From positions 2,305,561 to 2,369,560 of the forward strand of contig OX639973.1 in assembly GCA_951828385.1 (NCBI GenBank): a stretch of 64,000 nt of DNA, given 5' to 3'. The position numbers and the translations under genes were made by a program. Source of the stretch: an uncultured Poribacteria bacterium. Its GTDB lineage: Bacteria; Poribacteria; WGA-4E; WGA-3G. Shown here one piece after another: positions 53,825 to 64,000 of the stretch; the stretch's first letter is position 1; each line of letters starts with the position of its first letter. The notes beneath the pieces were generated by a model. It saw nothing but the letters and a program-made list of their open reading frames with translations. It searched no databases and was not told where the DNA came from.

Positions 53825-54360
53825 GGCGCGCTTACAAAAAAATAAAATCAATTCGGTAATTGACGGGCGATGAATCGCCCTACTACGAACATATTGGCTT
53901 GTAGTAGTGCTATTTATAGCACGTTCGGAAGTTACACGATTAAATTACTTTATCAAGGCGCGCTTACAAAAAAATAAAATCAATTCGGTAATTGACGGGC
54001 GATGAATCGCCCTACTACGAACATATTGGCTTGTAGTAGTGCTATTTATAGCACGTTCGGAAGTTACACGATTAAATTACTTTATCAAGGCGCGCTTACA
54101 AAAAAATAAAATCAATTCGGTAATTGACGGGCGATGAATCGCCCTACTACGAACATATTGGCTTGTAGTAGTGCTATTTATAGCACGTTCGGAAGTTACA
54201 CGATTAAATTACTTTATCAAGGCGCGCTTACAAAAAAATAAAATCAATTCGGTAATTGACGGGCGATGAATCGCCCTACTACGAACATATTGGCTTGTAG
54301 TAGTGCTATTTATAGCACGTTCGGAAGTTACACGATTAAATTACTTTATCAAGGCGCGCC
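53825..54360. repeat. Four perfect 132-bp tandem repeats
   Basis: Units begin at 53825, 53957, 54089 and 54221 (GGCGCGCTTACAAAAAAAT) and read as identical. A fifth begins at 54353 and stops after GGCGCGC. Each unit holds a REP-like hairpin (GGGCGA-TGAA-TCGCCC then CTACTAC) and a second palindrome GTGCTATTTATAGCAC. Stop codons occur in all frames. The last base overlaps the stop codon of the gene on the right. Confidence 0.95.
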
Positions 54361-56940: not shown

Positions 56941-57336
56941 ATGGCAAACAATGCAACACTTGAGAGAATCTACCCATTTTTTATCGTTAAAAACCTTGCG
57001 GAGTCAATAGACTTCTACAATCAAAAACTCGGTTTCGAGACAGATATGCTTATCCCAGAAGATGATCCATTTTTCGCGATCGTGTCTCGCGATAACGTGC
57101 GGATACTCCTCAAACATATCACTGAAGATATTCATCCAGTACCGAACCACACACGGCACGAGTGGGCAAGATGGGATGCGTTCATTCTGGTTTCTGATCC
57201 TGACGCGTTGTTTGCTGAGTTTCAGTCTCGTGGATTGGCGTTCCACGAACCGCTTGCGGACACCGACGACGGTCTCCGTGCTTTTGAACTCAAGGATCGT
57301 GATGGGTATGTTTTGTGTTTTGGGAGATCGCTTTGA
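56941..57336 (+). CDS. VOC family (glyoxalase/bleomycin-resistance fold) protein
   Basis: 131 aa from ATG 56941, with AGGAGG upstream; a longer frame starting at 56710 is rejected. Typical VOC sequence: LERIYPFFIVKNLAESIDFY, NQKLGFETDM, then LLKHITEDIHPVPNHTRHEW, FHEPLADTDDGLRAFELKDR (20) and a last strand ending GYVLCFGRSL. The C-terminal Glu of FELKDRDG is a likely metal ligand. Upstream palindromes suggest specific repression. Its 3' end is duplicated twice downstream. Confidence 0.9.
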   Translation: MANNATLERIYPFFIVKNLAESIDFYNQKLGFETDMLIPEDDPFFAIVSRDNVRILLKHITEDIHPVPNHTRHEWARWDAFILVSDPDALFAEFQSRGLAFHEPLADTDDGLRAFELKDRDGYVLCFGRSL

Positions 57337-57530
57337 GCGGAGAATTATCTGAATCGCGGATTACACGGATTACGCAGATTTACGCGGAAGGAGTTCTCTC
57401 GCTCCAGCGGAGCAACATGTCTATAGCCAAAACGTCTAACAAGGCCGGCACTCCAGCGGAGTGTTATGTTTGAGAAATTTCCAAAGTTGGGTATAAACAA
57501 AAGGCAGGACTGTTTGCCTGCCAATGATTA
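57337..57530. repeat. Conserved flank downstream of VOC 3' end (copy A)
   Basis: About 165 bp after the VOC stop, containing GGATTACACGGATTACGCAG and short palindromes around CTCCAGCGGAG. Nearly identical sequence follows VOC fragment B at 57970-58130. The last ~25 bp (GGCAGG...CCTGCC) form a hairpin next to the small minus-strand gene. Confidence 0.75.
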
Positions 57531-57533
57531 GCA

Positions 57534-57737
57534 TTATTTTGACCGGCTGAATCTTTTCACAGCATCATTGAGTGCTTTGATGTATGCTGCCTGTGCTTTC
57601 TTTACTTTAGATGTATGACTCCTATTTGAAACACGAACTGCTTCCTGAACCGCATCAATTGCCCTACGAACTGCTTCACTATCAGCTCCACTTTTTCTGA
57701 CAGTAGAGAATATATAGTCAGTTTTCATACGAGACAT
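57534..57737 (-). CDS. Small basic hypothetical protein
   Basis: 67 aa, very basic, largely helical (SEAVRRAIDAVQEAVRVSNR, SKVKKAQAAYIKALNDAVKR). A strong Shine-Dalgarno (AGGAGG) precedes ATG. It lies between two copies of the VOC 3' end, in the opposite orientation. No family recognised; nucleic-acid binding would fit the charge but is only a guess. Confidence 0.65.
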   Translation of the reverse strand: MSRMKTDYIFSTVRKSGADSEAVRRAIDAVQEAVRVSNRSHTSKVKKAQAAYIKALNDAVKRFSRSK

Positions 57738-57819
57738 CAGTTTGTCCTCCTTGTTAGTAAAGACAATTTAAATTATATATCTGTTCGCAAAAAATTGCAA
57801 CTTAAATTTTTATTTTATC

Positions 57820-57969
57820 TGGGTTTCCGATCCCGACGCGCTGTTTGCTGAGTATCAGTCTCGTGGGTTGGAATTCCACGAACCCCTCGCAAATACCGAC
57901 GACGGTCTCCGCGCCTTTGAACTCAAGGATTATGACGGGTATGTTTTGTGTTTTGGGAGATCGCTTTGA
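57820..57969 (+). pseudogene. VOC gene 3' fragment B
   Basis: About 50 codons (from SDPDALFAEYQSRGLEFHEP to GYVLCFGRSL and stop) matching the 3' end of the VOC gene at 56941-57336, with no 5' part. Followed by the same 160-bp flank as the intact gene. Confidence 0.85.
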
Positions 57970-58130
57970 GCGGAGAATTGTCTGAATCGCGGATTACACG
58001 GATTACGCAGATTTACGCGGAAGGCGTTCTCTCGTTCCAGCGGAGCAACATGTCTATAGCCAATACGTCTAACAAGACCGGCACTCCAGCGGAGTGCTAT
58101 GTTTGAGAAATTTCCAAAGTTGGGTATAAA
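57970..58130. repeat. Conserved flank downstream of VOC fragment B
   Basis: Second copy of the 57337-57500 flank. It ends at GGGTATAAATGATGGGAAACC, where a few bases of a third VOC 3' end (GGGAAACCACTTTGA) follow. Confidence 0.8.
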
Positions 58131-58181
58131 TGATGGGAAACCACTTTGATAGGAGATGGAATGAAAATGGGCAATTCTATG

Positions 58182-58517
58182 CTAATTCTTTGTAGCATTT
58201 TGTGAGAGAAATACTGCTAAATCCTCACATTTACCCACATGAAAGTCAACACTGACCTGCTTCAGTATAGCGTCAAGTTTTCCCGCTTTTACGTCTTCCT
58301 TTAACTGCTTGTCCCACGCTTGCCAATCTGCTTCAAGAACTTGATAAAGCGTATTTTCAAGGGTTTCTAATAATACGGCTTGTGTATCTGCCTCATACTT
58401 CACCTTGGGATGTTCCTGTATCCATCCTATCCATCGCTTGCCATTTTTTTCGATTTTGGCGGTATAGATCTCGCCATCTTCCACATCATGAATTTTAACG
58501 GTTTGGATGTGGTCCAT
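58182..58517 (-). CDS. Small hypothetical protein, HicB/DUF1902-like outline
   Basis: 111 aa. The N-terminal strand-rich segment (DGEIYTAKIEKNGKRWIGWI) followed by a Thr/Gln-Ala-Val-LLETLENTL helix resembles the HicB-type antitoxin fold, with a helical C-terminal extension. A Shine-Dalgarno (GGAGGAG) precedes ATG. No HicA-like toxin is adjacent. It lies between VOC fragments B and C in the opposite orientation. Confidence 0.65.
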   Translation of the reverse strand: MDHIQTVKIHDVEDGEIYTAKIEKNGKRWIGWIQEHPKVKYEADTQAVLLETLENTLYQVLEADWQAWDKQLKEDVKAGKLDAILKQVSVDFHVGKCEDLAVFLSQNATKN

Positions 58518-58619
58518 GTTTTGCTCCTCCGATAAGGTCTACCTGCACGATATTTGGTAATACAGTATTATGTGATAATTGGGGTGAAAAGTCAAATTTA
58601 TTCTCAATGTCCAAGCGTA

Positions 58620-58748
58620 CCGTTTGCTGAGTTGCAGTCGCGTGAACTGGCGTTCCACGAACCGATCGCCGACACCGACGACGGTCTCCGCGCTTTTGAA
58701 CTCAAGGATCATGATGGATATGTGTTGTGTTTTGGGAAACCACTTTGA
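58620..58748 (+). pseudogene. VOC gene 3' fragment C
   Basis: About 42 codons (PFAELQSRELAFHEPIADTD ... GYVLCFGKPL, stop). It ends KPL, not RSL, so it derives from a slightly different VOC paralogue. No 5' part. Confidence 0.85.
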
Positions 58749-58786
58749 ATAGATAAGCGGTAAAATGGATAATAAAAATTCAAGGT

Positions 58787-61234
58787 TTAAGGAGCTAAGA
58801 GTTTTACACAACGGAATCCAGTAGTGTTACTCGTACGCACTGGTGAATCGCTGGAGCGATAAGCAATTCGCACGTAGTTTGCATTACTGGACCAGGAACC
58901 ACCACGCAATACACGGCTAGCGTTGAGATTCTTAAAATCACGAACAATACTATAAATACTCCCACCAGCAACGGGATTTCGACGCGCAGAGTTGGCATAA
59001 AAGCTGCTGCTATACGCGTCAAGACACCACTCCGATACATTTCCTACCATATCATATAGTCCATAAGGATTCGCTTGGTAATTGCCAATACGGGTGGCAC
59101 TACCAACATTCTGGTCATAGTTTGCTGTTTGGGAATTAACCAGATTACCCGACAGATAGTTGTTGACCAATCCACCACGCGCTGCCTTCTCCCATTCTGC
59201 TTCCGTTGGTAGGCGTTTCCCTTTCCACTGTGCATACGCCATAGCTGCATACCAGCTTACCCAAGTAACAGGGTGATTACCTTTCCCGTACGGATATCTA
59301 TTTCCAATCCAATGTTTCAAGTAATCACCATCATGGTATGCCTGAAGAATGCGATCTTTTCGCCACTGTGGATTGGCATCAACAAATTTTTTATAATCCT
59401 CATTAGTTACCTCATACTTGTCAATGTAAAATGAATTAACATAAACTGTATGCACTGGTTTCTCATCGGAATACGCAGCAGCATCGTTACTTCCTATACG
59501 AAAGTTGCCAGCAGGAATCAGAACCATTCCTGCTAATTCCATGGAATTGCGTGTTGGAAGTTGCAATGGACTAACCCTGGAAGTCGATCTTTGAATCTCT
59601 GTGTCCTTTTCAGCAAGCTGCCTTTTCAACTTTTTGTTTTCGCTATTAAGTGTCCTTTTTTCGTCTTCCAGCCTCTGAGAACCATCTTTCAGCGTTTGAA
59701 AGTTGCTCGAAAGTTGTTGAATTTCAATATCCTTGGCTTTAACTTTATGAAGAGCCGCGTTTTTTTCTTCTATTTGTGCTGCTAATACCGCAGCACAAAC
59801 GACTAAGACTATACCGAAGAAAAATGTAAGATACTGCCAAATATTAGTCTCAGACTTTGGTGTTGGTGCCACAGGGTCTGGTGTTGTTGGGCCAGGATTT
59901 GATATTGGATTAGGAGGTGATGGTTTCGTAAGAGACGGGGACACTGGCTTAGTCGACTTTGAAGGCACAAAATGTAACAGATTTATAGTGTCCAAAAGTT
60001 GACGGGCAGGCTGATAGTGTGGATCAATCCTTAAGGCTGCATTTGCCGCCACTGTCGCCCTGATGTTACTGCCCGATTTAAAATAGGCAAGACCCAACGC
60101 ATGGTGTGCTTCTTTATAGTTAGGCTCGTCTTTTATCAGTTGCTCAAACGTGTTAATGGCATCGGCATACCGTTTACTGTGTAAAAAAACACGCCCGATA
60201 CCGTAGCGTGCCTTCTCATAGTTGGGGTCAAGTGCTATCGCCTTTCGGAACTCTGCAAGTGCCTCGTTATACCGTTCATCGTTTAGAAGTACCTCCCCCC
60301 GATTGCTACAGGTATTGGCATTCGGTTTTGGCAATATCGCTTCCAAGGGTGCTAATTGATCAATAGAAGTTTTAGCACAAAAGTCCTTCAACGTTGCTGC
60401 CAACTGTTGAACGTCAGGCGATAACTTTTCAAGTTCTTGGAAAATGTCTGATTGGTCAGGATTTTCAAAATCCTCCTTTGAAAATAGTAAGCCTCTTTCG
60501 GTTTTATCTTTAACCCGATTCCAAAGTTCAGGTTTTTCTGCCAAACTCAGAAAGGAAAGGTAAATAACCAATTCCGAGAAATAGTCAACCTTTTCGTTGG
60601 CTTGACCACCACTTACCATTCTTGTCGGGTGTTGGTATTCCGGTAGTCCGACAATTTGTTCTGGCTGCCCTTGAAGCGTTGGAACAAACAAACCGTCATA
60701 GTCTATCAATTTGAGTTTGACATCAACCCCATTTTGTTTGATCAGGATATTTCCATCTTGCAAATCGCCGTGTGAAACCCCATGTTTATGAAGAATAGCA
60801 ACCATTTCCTGAAAATCATCTGCTATAACTTTAAAGATGTGAGGACTCTGCAAATTTTGTTCAATAGACTCACGGAGTGATACGCCCTCTACCCATTCCA
60901 TGCGTGTGATAGGGTGCTTTTTCCCCATCACCATAATGCCTTCAGGTTCATACCTAAAATCAACAAACCAAGGCAGGCTCACCTGTCGCAAATAATCTGA
61001 TATTTTTTCGTAGCGAATTTGTGCATCGTCAATACCTTTCGTCCAACAACGCAATGCCAAGGTTTTAGACGCTACATCAATAGGGAAAACGATTGAAAAT
61101 CCTCCTGCGTATGACAGCACGAAGTTGTCTTTCCCCACCTTAACTTTTCCACCTTTGAGGTTTGGATCTTGCAAACTTAAATGAGGATAGTTCCGCACTG
61201 CCGTAGTATATTCGGCGGGGCTTGGCCACTGCAT
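58787..61234 (-). CDS. Kinase-like/TPR/transmembrane protein with C-terminal FGE-fold sensor domain
   Basis: 815 aa. The N-terminal protein-kinase-like domain has catalytic loop HGDLQDGN (155-162) and LIDYDG (176-181, DFG equivalent); the strand-3 Lys seems replaced (LALRCW). Three TPRs span about 300-415. A Pro-rich linker is followed by one transmembrane helix (about 470-492, YLTFFFGIVLVVCAAVLAA) and a coiled coil to about 565. The C-terminal FGE/C-type-lectin-fold domain (LIPAGNFRIGSNDAAA ... GFRCVKLLAP) lacks the two FGE cysteines and is rich in Ser, Asn, Thr and Tyr in the usual binding stretch. Topology suggests an outside sensor and a cytoplasmic kinase. Last gene of a vWA-PP2C-kinase operon. 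Confidence 0.88.
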   Translation of the reverse strand: MQWPSPAEYTTAVRNYPHLSLQDPNLKGGKVKVGKDNFVLSYAGGFSIVFPIDVASKTLALRCWTKGIDDAQIRYEKISDYLRQVSLPWFVDFRYEPEGIMVMGKKHPITRMEWVEGVSLRESIEQNLQSPHIFKVIADDFQEMVAILHKHGVSHGDLQDGNILIKQNGVDVKLKLIDYDGLFVPTLQGQPEQIVGLPEYQHPTRMVSGGQANEKVDYFSELVIYLSFLSLAEKPELWNRVKDKTERGLLFSKEDFENPDQSDIFQELEKLSPDVQQLAATLKDFCAKTSIDQLAPLEAILPKPNANTCSNRGEVLLNDERYNEALAEFRKAIALDPNYEKARYGIGRVFLHSKRYADAINTFEQLIKDEPNYKEAHHALGLAYFKSGSNIRATVAANAALRIDPHYQPARQLLDTINLLHFVPSKSTKPVSPSLTKPSPPNPISNPGPTTPDPVAPTPKSETNIWQYLTFFFGIVLVVCAAVLAAQIEEKNAALHKVKAKDIEIQQLSSNFQTLKDGSQRLEDEKRTLNSENKKLKRQLAEKDTEIQRSTSRVSPLQLPTRNSMELAGMVLIPAGNFRIGSNDAAAYSDEKPVHTVYVNSFYIDKYEVTNEDYKKFVDANPQWRKDRILQAYHDGDYLKHWIGNRYPYGKGNHPVTWVSWYAAMAYAQWKGKRLPTEAEWEKAARGGLVNNYLSGNLVNSQTANYDQNVGSATRIGNYQANPYGLYDMVGNVSEWCLDAYSSSFYANSARRNPVAGGSIYSIVRDFKNLNASRVLRGGSWSSNANYVRIAYRSSDSPVRTSNTTGFRCVKLLAP

Positions 61235-61254
61235 CCTTTGCTCCTGTTATTTTA

Positions 61255-62178
61255 CTAACTTTTATTGAGTAAAATCAAGACGAGAATGATAGCTCCGACA
61301 ACAAATCCAAAAATTCCAGCCAGTATAACCCAAAAGACAAACGCTAAGTCATTAACAGGTGATTCAACATCTTCTGAAGTTTGTACTTCCAAAGAAAGCA
61401 CCTCCGCGTCTTCCTCGGTTTCAGGTGGCTCAGTTTCTTCAATCGAAATTAACATTAACGTTACATCGTCATTTACCAAACGAATATTTTCGTTATCACG
61501 TGCTAAATCGACGAAACTATAAAATTGCTCACTAGTTCTTATCCGTTTGAGATGATTCAGAGCTTCTTCTACTTGATCAGTTTCTTCATGTTGCACAATC
61601 CATTTCGCCAAAGCATCCGTTGCTAAGATAAACATATCTCCAGATTGGATTTCACCACCTACAAATTTCGGATTGTAGTGGTTCCTCTCAGGAAAGCTAG
61701 CAAAAGCCTCCGGATGATTTGTAAAATCCTCTGATCTTTCTATCAGATGACTCTTAAATCCAGAGTGACTCTTATGAAAGAGGCAGCTATCACCTATAAT
61801 TACTGCTTGCCATCTTCCTTCAGCTTTGTCAATTTCAAGCCCGATGAAAGTAGCAACAGCAGGCTCCCGGGCGTTAAATGAGTTTGTGAGATAAAATTGA
61901 TTCCGTGCTTTAACTCTTTTTTCAACTCGTTTGTACCATTCCTCTTGAATAGGAACCAACCACTCTTTCCAATTTTCTCCACTTAAAAATAGATCAGATC
62001 TCTCACAAAAATGTTTGACAAGGAGTTCCGCCCAGCATTTTGGAAAGAAAGAGCGGGTTGCACCATCTGCAACAGCATAACGGGAGTGCTCTTTGTTTAC
62101 CTCAAGAGCATCCTGGCAATCATCTAAACTTTCCGCTTTTTTATGTGTAATGAAGGGGTAGATAGTTAGATTCATCAT
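61255..62178 (-). CDS. Membrane-anchored PP2C-like phosphatase
   Basis: About 307 aa. PP2C motifs are visible: YAVADGATRSFFPKCWAELL (metal Asp), VIIGDSCLF, FILATDALAKW and NDDVTLMLI. A C-terminal transmembrane helix (FVFWVILAGIFGFVVGAIIL) follows a long acidic linker. ATG 62178 is chosen, 4 bp after the vWA gene stop; GTG 62181 is possible. The gene starts within a few bases of its neighbour and the kinase gene follows after 20 bp, so all three are translated as one unit. It would reverse phosphorylation by the kinase. Confidence 0.87.
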   Translation of the reverse strand: MMNLTIYPFITHKKAESLDDCQDALEVNKEHSRYAVADGATRSFFPKCWAELLVKHFCERSDLFLSGENWKEWLVPIQEEWYKRVEKRVKARNQFYLTNSFNAREPAVATFIGLEIDKAEGRWQAVIIGDSCLFHKSHSGFKSHLIERSEDFTNHPEAFASFPERNHYNPKFVGGEIQSGDMFILATDALAKWIVQHEETDQVEEALNHLKRIRTSEQFYSFVDLARDNENIRLVNDDVTLMLISIEETEPPETEEDAEVLSLEVQTSEDVESPVNDLAFVFWVILAGIFGFVVGAIILVLILLNKS

Positions 62179-62182
62179 CACT

Positions 62183-63424
62183 TTAGTCAGCAGGTGCGGG
62201 AAGAACTCGAACTCCCGTAAAACCCGTACTACCGAATTGCAAGAGTTGAATCATCAAAACTTCATCGGCATTATACACAAAACATCTCGCCCCTGGCTCC
62301 GGTGAAAATCCTGCTTCCTCCGCCGCTTTAAACAATTCTGGAGGTAAGGCACTAGAGATATCAAAGAGATATTCTGCCAATGGCTGACCTGAAAACTGAT
62401 CTGTGTTATGCGACAAAGGCTTTACTATATTGCCTTTGTTAGTAATATGAATATTAAAAACTAGAGAGGCTCCATCTGTGGTGCGGGAATTCATTATTTT
62501 TCTTGCCGCATCTGCTGCTAAATCGGGACGGGTAGCGGCACCATCCGTAATGTTGATGACTATTGGAGGAAAAGCGTCAGGCCTGTCAGAAATCCAATCC
62601 TCAATTATCTCTGCAGCACGTTCAAATGCCTTATGCATCGGTGTCTGACTATTTGCCTTAGGTTCTAACCATATTGGCACCTCACTTTCAATCTCAATTA
62701 CTCCCCCTGCTCCATCGGGTATAAGCTTTTTGACTTTCTTTATATCAATGATGGCTGAGACAATCTCCGATATCATACCATCAACAACACAATTGACGTT
62801 CTCGCCATAACCAATCACGGAAATATGACATCGTTCTCTAATTGTGTCTCCGCTTCGGCATGCTAAAACGATGTTTTCAATGACAGAATTGACTGCCTGT
62901 GTTGCCCGTTCTGCCTTGGTTCCATCTCCAAAGGATTCCGACATTGACCAAGATTGATCGACCAAGATGATGATACAACCTGGATTAGATGTTCCAATAG
63001 GCACATTGCTATATTCAGTTTTTGACGACGTTCCGATAGGAACAATGCTATCTGCCATTTCAGCGTCCTCTTTAAGAATGCCCTTCTCAAAATCAGAAGG
63101 GACGATTTGATGAAACCGATTATGCCGAAGATTCTCGAAAAAAATCCATGAATCGCGTTCGATCCTGGGTGCGAACACACCAAAAGATGTGTCGGTTGCA
63201 CTAAGATAACTTTTCAGTTGAGGAATCCCGTAATTTGCGCCGCCCGGCGATTTGCACTCTGCAATAGCGACGAATTTTCCATCAGCATCACGAAGTACAA
63301 TATCAGCTGCGCGATTATCCGTCCCCATCTGAATTTCGCATTCTTTGATAATAGAAAATTTCGAGAATTTCGGCTCAGAAAAATATGCAATGACTTCTTC
63401 TACCACTTTATCTTCTGGTTTCAT
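62183..63424 (-). CDS. Restriction-nuclease-like/vWA fusion protein
   Basis: 413 aa. The N-terminal ~115 residues match the HsdR-N/PD-(D/E)XK fold: RAADIVLRDADGKFVAIAEC followed by KS, giving the D-x14-E-x-K active site (Asp41, Glu56, Lys58). A vWA domain follows with MIDAS DQSWSMS (Asp156, Ser158, Ser160), a Thr around INITDGAATRPD and FNIHITNKGN. In TerY-type proteins vWA is a stand-alone adaptor; the nuclease fusion is unusual. A Shine-Dalgarno AGGAGG precedes the start. First gene of the operon. Confidence 0.85.
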   Translation of the reverse strand: MKPEDKVVEEVIAYFSEPKFSKFSIIKECEIQMGTDNRAADIVLRDADGKFVAIAECKSPGGANYGIPQLKSYLSATDTSFGVFAPRIERDSWIFFENLRHNRFHQIVPSDFEKGILKEDAEMADSIVPIGTSSKTEYSNVPIGTSNPGCIIILVDQSWSMSESFGDGTKAERATQAVNSVIENIVLACRSGDTIRERCHISVIGYGENVNCVVDGMISEIVSAIIDIKKVKKLIPDGAGGVIEIESEVPIWLEPKANSQTPMHKAFERAAEIIEDWISDRPDAFPPIVINITDGAATRPDLAADAARKIMNSRTTDGASLVFNIHITNKGNIVKPLSHNTDQFSGQPLAEYLFDISSALPPELFKAAEEAGFSPEPGARCFVYNADEVLMIQLLQFGSTGFTGVRVLPAPAD

Positions 63425-64000
63425 AAGCCTCCTGTTCTCCTGAGGTTTTGCTTTTTACCAAGTTGATTATATCACATATATGAATTATGTCAAGTTGTTT
63501 TTAAGCAAATTTTAGGGTATTAGTTCCGAAAATATAGGCGTAGTCAGCTGCTATACACATGCCGCCCTTACAGGGCTGAAGAGATAACAGGAACATTTTT
63601 CTATACACATGCCGTTCCTACGGAACTGGGGAGAATTATACTTCTGGCATTCAAGACAAGGCGATTTATAGTAAAGTTTAGAATTAATAGAACACTCCGT
63701 GCCGGTTCGGTTAGGAAACCGAACCATAGGTGTCAATTTAGTCAAAGTCAATCCGTCCAGACCCGATAATTTTCAAGTCCCGTAGGTTGGGTTGAACGGC
63801 GTTGAGAAGTGAGATATTGACATGCCAAGCACACCTGAAAGTCAATATCCTGCCATATCCATTCAAGAACGTAGTGAAACCCAACTTTACACCGTCAGCA
63901 CCCCGGAAACTTCCAAGCCAAAGCGTTGGGTTTCACTCGGTCTCTGATGGATGTGGTGTATCTGGAGATAGTTGTGTTTTTCTATGATTTTTCAGGGTTT
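63425..64000. other. Gene-free spacer with repeats
   Basis: No gene. CTATACACATGCCG occurs twice (about 63551 and 63601). A half MITE end TATAGTAAAG starts at 63667 with an inner hairpin GGTTCGGTT/AACCGAACC. A long stem GATATTGAC/GTCAATATC spans 63813-63849, flanked by the inverted pair TTGGGTT/AACCCAA. The AT-rich stretch 63455-63500 may hold the promoter of the vWA operon. Confidence 0.5.

Follow-up and report, generated by a model that had tools for sequence, protein, structure and literature searches.

We found that three adjacent minus-strand genes at the right end of the analysed window (the whole stretch of 64,000 nt, taken from a genome, G000, that forms a single contig of 6.66 Mb) encode the core of a TerY-P system whose TerY protein carries an N-terminal PD-(D/E)XK nuclease module (NUC). 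With a probability of roughly 55%, we read the locus as an anti-phage variant of TerY-P in which a captured nuclease sits on the vWA protein, the OB part of the kinase has been swapped for a membrane-anchored TPR/coiled-coil/FGE arm, and signalling controls the nuclease. The genes follow the order nuclease-vWA, PP2C, kinase, with gaps of 1 base and then 20 bases, so they are almost contiguous, as a preliminary description had stated; the three open reading frames and the domain architecture it gave also agree with Pfam and the ORF coordinates (Table 1). A promoter-like site ends 42 bases ahead of the fusion-gene start, and its score is unique among the 17 promoter-like sites in positions 57300-64000 (13.6 expected from shuffling).

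Table 1. Features of the triad and of the adjoining hotspot edge (window positions)
Feature	Position	Strand	Basis or remark
Nuclease-vWA (NUC-TerY fusion) gene	63424..62183	-	413 aa
PP2C gene	62181..61255	-	308 aa, GTG start
Kinase gene	61234..58787	-	815 aa
Promoter-like site TTGACA-16-TATAAT, extended -10 TG	63466..63493	-	12/12 match, sigma-70-like
AGGAGG ribosome-binding site of fusion gene	63428..63433	-	Sequence
PD-(D/E)XK (HSDR_N_2) module, fusion residues 1-118	63071..63424	-	Pfam above cut-off; D41, E56, K58, Q69/Y73
Relict TerY ribosome site (GAGG) and start ATG (M123) within fusion	63056..63070	-	Putative internal start, free TerY
TerY-type vWA domain, full MIDAS, fusion residues 137-413	62183..63016	-	PADLOC TerY 1.5e-47
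PP2C phosphatase, C-terminal TM helix (residues 285-303)	61255..62181	-	Pfam PP2C_2; PADLOC PP2C 2.6e-25
STK_OB-type kinase domain, residues 1-300 of 815	60335..61234	-	PADLOC STK_OB 1.1e-64
TPR region of kinase protein	59915..60334	-	Pfam
Kinase TM helix (468-486)	59777..59833	-	TM prediction
Coiled-coil-like region of kinase protein	59555..59767	-	Sequence; weak coiled-coil family matches
FGE/C-type-lectin-fold domain without catalytic cysteines	58787..59554	-	Pfam FGE-sulfatase 1.8e-60
VOC gene 3' end, reference copy at hotspot edge	57210..57336	+	
Duplicated VOC 3' end, copy 2 (89%)	57843..57969	+	
Duplicated VOC 3' end, copy 3 (89%), abuts kinase gene end	58622..58748	+	

The TerY-P core and its distribution

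The TerY-P profiles of PADLOC match all three proteins (values in Table 1), and the catalytic features are intact throughout: the MIDAS of the vWA domain (DQSWS, T261, D294), whose Pfam score falls just below the cut-off, the acid residues of the PP2C and the kinase motifs (HGDLQDGN...IDYD). On sequence grounds, the assignment of the core to TerY-P is well tested. The preliminary description, which held that the trio recalls TerY-P, was right about the likeness but understated it. A sequence search of the PDB with TerY and PP2C returned no match.

We counted the TerY and PP2C proteins of this clade in 84 Poribacteria genomes. TerYs occur in 7 of the 84 and PP2Cs in the identical 7, a coincidence expected about once in 4.5 billion if the two were independent (calculated by hand, relatedness ignored). 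These genomes hold eight loci (two in G077), and TerY, PP2C and kinase genes are contiguous at all eight, with the kinase gene adjoining TerY/PP2C in 8/8; the co-occurrence on which the preliminary description depended is therefore regular rather than rare. At the G063 locus one extra kinase-TerY fusion sits between TerY and PP2C. The distribution is patchy and spans four genera. Triads are also present on two cyanobacterial plasmids, from Acaryochloris and Calothrix, the only plasmid TerYs found; both are without nuclease, and the Calothrix triad has a full STK_OB kinase. Spread by phage was considered and rejected, since the fusion has no match in annotated phages and neither NUC nor TerY has one in viral contigs.

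The nuclease module and its fusion to TerY

Pfam matches to HSDR_N_2/HSDR_N lie above the cut-off at fusion residues 11-84. The nuclease residues rank among the most conserved positions of the module (D41 in 38, E56 in 38 and K58 in 36 of 39 subfamily copies), and some of their losses are in tandem pairs, where the second copy has degenerated. The complete nuclease motif that had been read from this one sequence is thus conserved in its homologues. All 16 NUC copies tested match HSDR_N_2, a family found in 73/84 Poribacteria genomes. In a weak match (E 0.083), the NUC profile places D41/E56/K58 on the D...ExK region of Card1, a CRISPR-associated nuclease. A structure model of the nuclease built from a two-row alignment reached a pLDDT of 37, too poor for a fold. 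A dN/dS of about 0.09-0.13 indicates purifying selection on NUC; the ratios of TerY, PP2C and kinase are about 0.10-0.15. Two large proteins (L051 2702-9472 and L049 6562-9117) contain two tandem NUC copies, the second without catalytic residues.

Partners of NUC include TPR, HHH, OB, TM/coiled-coil, DNA methylase and HigA-like parts, and the module is a widespread, mobile and shuffled add-on that lies outside the conserved TerY-P system. The idea that the nuclease belongs to a conserved triad had to be abandoned: the other TerYs of the clade start near fusion residue 137 without NUC, which is shuffled genus-wide. Its many unlike partners in the genus (HHH, OB, TPR, coiled coil, HigA-like) would also befit a general adaptor, and the module could accordingly bind DNA or act as a tether, carrying TerY as a scaffold to the DNA with no cutting, a role that tandem second copies devoid of the motif would suit. 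We regard this as improbable, because D/E/K and QxxxY are kept in nearly all first copies and a binding-only domain is not expected to retain K58.

At the fusion junction the module end, DFEKGILK, runs into EDAE-MADSIVPIGTSSKTEYSNVPIGTS. NUC modules elsewhere end DFEKxIL(K/E), which is the fusion point, and all other TerYs of the clade begin MAYSNVPIGTS or similar, from gene starts of the form GGAGG-N7-ATGGC. The junction GAGG-N8-ATG resembles TerY's own ribosome site and start, and a small duplication lies 3' of this ATG (21/25 bases alike). The simplest history these sequences suggest is that the NUC gene ran on into TerY. Because the old ribosome site and start codon are kept, free TerY may also be translated from M123. 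One of the nine TerYs in the phylum bears the fusion. In G002 a NUC that is 86% identical has the same start and adjoins the same DUF6785-PPS genes; its contig stops at residue 87, and neither TerY nor PP2C was found in that assembly (86% complete), so the fusion is known from one genome.

The main rival of a nuclease output starts from this junction. It holds that a neighbouring NUC gene lost its stop and reads into TerY, while M123 yields a normal TerY, leaving an ordinary TerY-P system with the nuclease as a passenger or an independent protein. The residues EDAE-M-ADS would then be a translated relict GAGG site followed by the TerY start, and the module ending exactly where it is fused, the different beginning of the relatives and the restriction to one genome would all be expected, as would NUC and TerY-P filling the same hotspot in different genomes. 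However, a strong promoter-like site and a ribosome site precede the fusion start, the frame is open and the catalytic residues are intact. NUC is also under purifying selection relative to the G002 copy (dN/dS 0.09; that copy may be unfused), and a NUC gene lies just downstream of one of the G077 triads. We consider incidental fusion possible but doubtful.

The kinase arm and the genomic hotspot

The kinase covers positions 1-293 of the 562 in the STK_OB profile, so that the OB half is absent. The FGE domain at its other end lacks the catalytic cysteine pair (LC..YC) of true formylglycine-generating enzymes (RVLRGGSW---SSNANYV versus RVLRGGSYLCHDSYCNR), as the preliminary description had observed. 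The arm ends in FGE at four loci (G000, G063, G077a, G077b) and in TPRs at four (G007, G008, G043, G045), with the first TPR block missing in G008. Transmembrane helices of kinase and PP2C are concordant, both present or both absent, at 7/8 loci; the exception is G007, where the PP2C tail is broken by stops. This agreement points to one common compartment for kinase and phosphatase. The architecture described for the present locus is right, with kinase TM, PP2C TM and FGE all found, but an outside FGE sensor is not general: at G077a both the kinase-TPR-FGE protein and the PP2C are without TM, and half of the relatives have TPRs. In G063 a single kinase-TPR-TerY chain with a degenerate MIDAS (L063 8231-10234) stands beside separate intact TerY, PP2C and kinase-FGE proteins, which supports contact between kinase and TerY. 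Relatives differ at the C-terminus of the FGE, the position of such regions in targets of diversity-generating retroelements, but a target of this kind was rejected; the genome contains no template repeat, and its only RT gene lies at a distance of about 1.9 Mb.

The triad has a VOC gene on one side and DUF6785-PPS genes on the other; the hotspot so bounded holds variable cargo of 2-14 kb, including restriction-modification, HigB, methylase-HNH and TerY-P genes. Measured by hand, the distance between PPS and the oxidoreductase gene beyond VOC ranges from 2.0 kb (G033, G065) up to 14.2 kb in this genome. TerY-P is the cargo in G000, G008 and G063, and methylase-HNH in G000 and G005; G001 has a methylase with HSDR_N and a specificity subunit (look-alikes in G024, G035 and G007) as well as a HigB toxin and HigA-TPR-NUC; and NUC is found in G028 and G029, so that alternative cargo carries NUC at the same hotspot in three genomes (G001, G028, G029). 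Other copies of the hotspot are empty or hold non-defence genes. At occupied loci the VOC 3' end is found duplicated in G000 (three copies), G020, G029 and G035, a pattern that repeated entry of cargo at this site would produce. Elsewhere, the G007 triad comes after cas6 and type III-D RAMP genes, and the triads of G043 and G045 lie among metabolic genes. The nearness to defence genes that an anti-phage role had led the preliminary description to look for is thus borne out by the restriction-modification, toxin-antitoxin and TerY-P cargo and by the G007 neighbourhood.

Several further elements in and around the hotspot were recorded. An N4/N6 DNA methylase-HNH fusion (L038 9770-11191, about window 64209-65630 and thus past the window end) is encoded upstream of the triad, on its strand, and a 95% identical copy occupies the same hotspot of G005, where the triad is absent. 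In G001 (L043 4555-5991) the gene after HigB encodes a HigA-like N-terminus (judged by eye), TPR and PD-(D/E)XK; the pair seems to be a toxin-antitoxin system whose antitoxin carries a nuclease. A conserved 111-aa ORF at 58182-58517, from a family without assignment, is found again at the hotspots of G018, G029 and G035. Directly after the oxidoreductase gene, 53825-54359 is a 132-bp tandem repeat with 4.1 perfect copies.

With kinase and phosphatase membrane-anchored in most loci and FGE or TPR arms predicted outside, the system could instead be a switch that responds to membrane stress or to contact (by sensing metals or the envelope, the role first suggested for Ter systems) and not a phage defence; its FGE arm would then bind an extracellular ligand. 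The two triads among metabolic genes would accord with such a switch, but the patchy 7/84 distribution, the restriction-modification and toxin-antitoxin cargo of the hotspot and the CRISPR neighbour speak against it, and the TM-free kinase and PP2C of G077a show that an outside sensor is not general. A stress switch is distinctly unlikely in our estimate.

Under the anti-phage reading, phosphorylation at the membrane would be kept in balance by the membrane-bound kinase and PP2C until infection, sensed by the TPR/FGE arm or by some interacting protein, tips this balance. The phosphorylated, MIDAS-bearing TerY scaffold would then release or recruit its fused nuclease, leading to DNA cutting. 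Three points are inferred here, namely NUC-TerY as the phospho-target, DNA cutting by NUC and phage as the trigger; the sensor-to-nuclease signalling proposed in the preliminary description, and with it nuclease control and phage defence by the Poribacteria triad, would follow this path. The recurrence of NUC near TerY-P counts in favour of the anti-phage reading (fused here, beside a G077 triad, as cargo of the same hotspot, and in G002 beside DUF6785-PPS). Counting against it are the singleton nature of the fusion, the possible translation from M123, the metabolic surroundings of the G043 and G045 triads and the poor structure model.

Relation to known systems

Gao et al. 2020 described TerY-P as an anti-phage system. 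It is active against T7-like phages, which it blocks while most cells survive, and it also defends in P. aeruginosa, where it has been tested (PMC7699616, PMC10889362). The final target of the kinase/phosphatase pair is not stated in this defence literature (PMC7699616, PMC10889362), and TerY-P accompanies nucleases in CoCoNuTs (PMC11090510). A tentative and rather doubtful generalization would be that TerY-P triads provide phosphorylation-gated control of separate or fused nucleases, the present one being a restriction enzyme under a phospho-switch, equipped with an FGE sensor arm that faces the envelope. If this were true, the genome would show the missing TerY-P effector within one chain.

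The type II/III-A CoCoNuT and GAP1-N2 GTPase systems contain the same vWA, PP2C and kinase triad with a variable kinase C-terminus (zinc ribbon, TM helices; PMC11090510, PMC7159879), and the TerY-P kinases of GAP1-N2 triads likewise vary there (PMC7159879). Unlike these systems, the Poribacteria triad had no McrB/CnuE or GAP1-N2 GTPase partner noticed in the surrounding 20 kb, and its kinase has neither a zinc ribbon match nor an OB fold, both features of described TerY-P subtypes. In the vWA-MoxR-VMAP ternary conflict systems, vWA components can bear REase-fold or FGE (FGS) fusions (PMC7159879), but here the vWA is TerY-type, the FGE is on the kinase, no MoxR/VMAP gene was noticed and there is no diversity-generating template. 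HsdR N-terminal domain (HSDR_N_2) proteins share with NUC the Pfam match above cut-off, the D-E-x-K residues and QxxxY, whereas NUC is without helicase and forms a free-standing module fused to TerY.

Canonical TerY-P (PADLOC TerY, PP2C and STK_OB) is the system with the same gene order and likewise intact MIDAS, PP2C and kinase residues, and the kinase Arg in the ALRCW/AIRCF motif is common to the Poribacteria triad and the canonical Calothrix STK_OB. In contrast to it, the Poribacteria kinase replaces the OB half with TPR-TM-coiled coil-FGE, the PP2C has a C-terminal TM and TerY has the N-terminal PD-(D/E)XK fusion. Together with the NUC genes found beside or in place of triads, this fusion points to a concrete candidate for the TerY-P output step, one that would be cheap to test.
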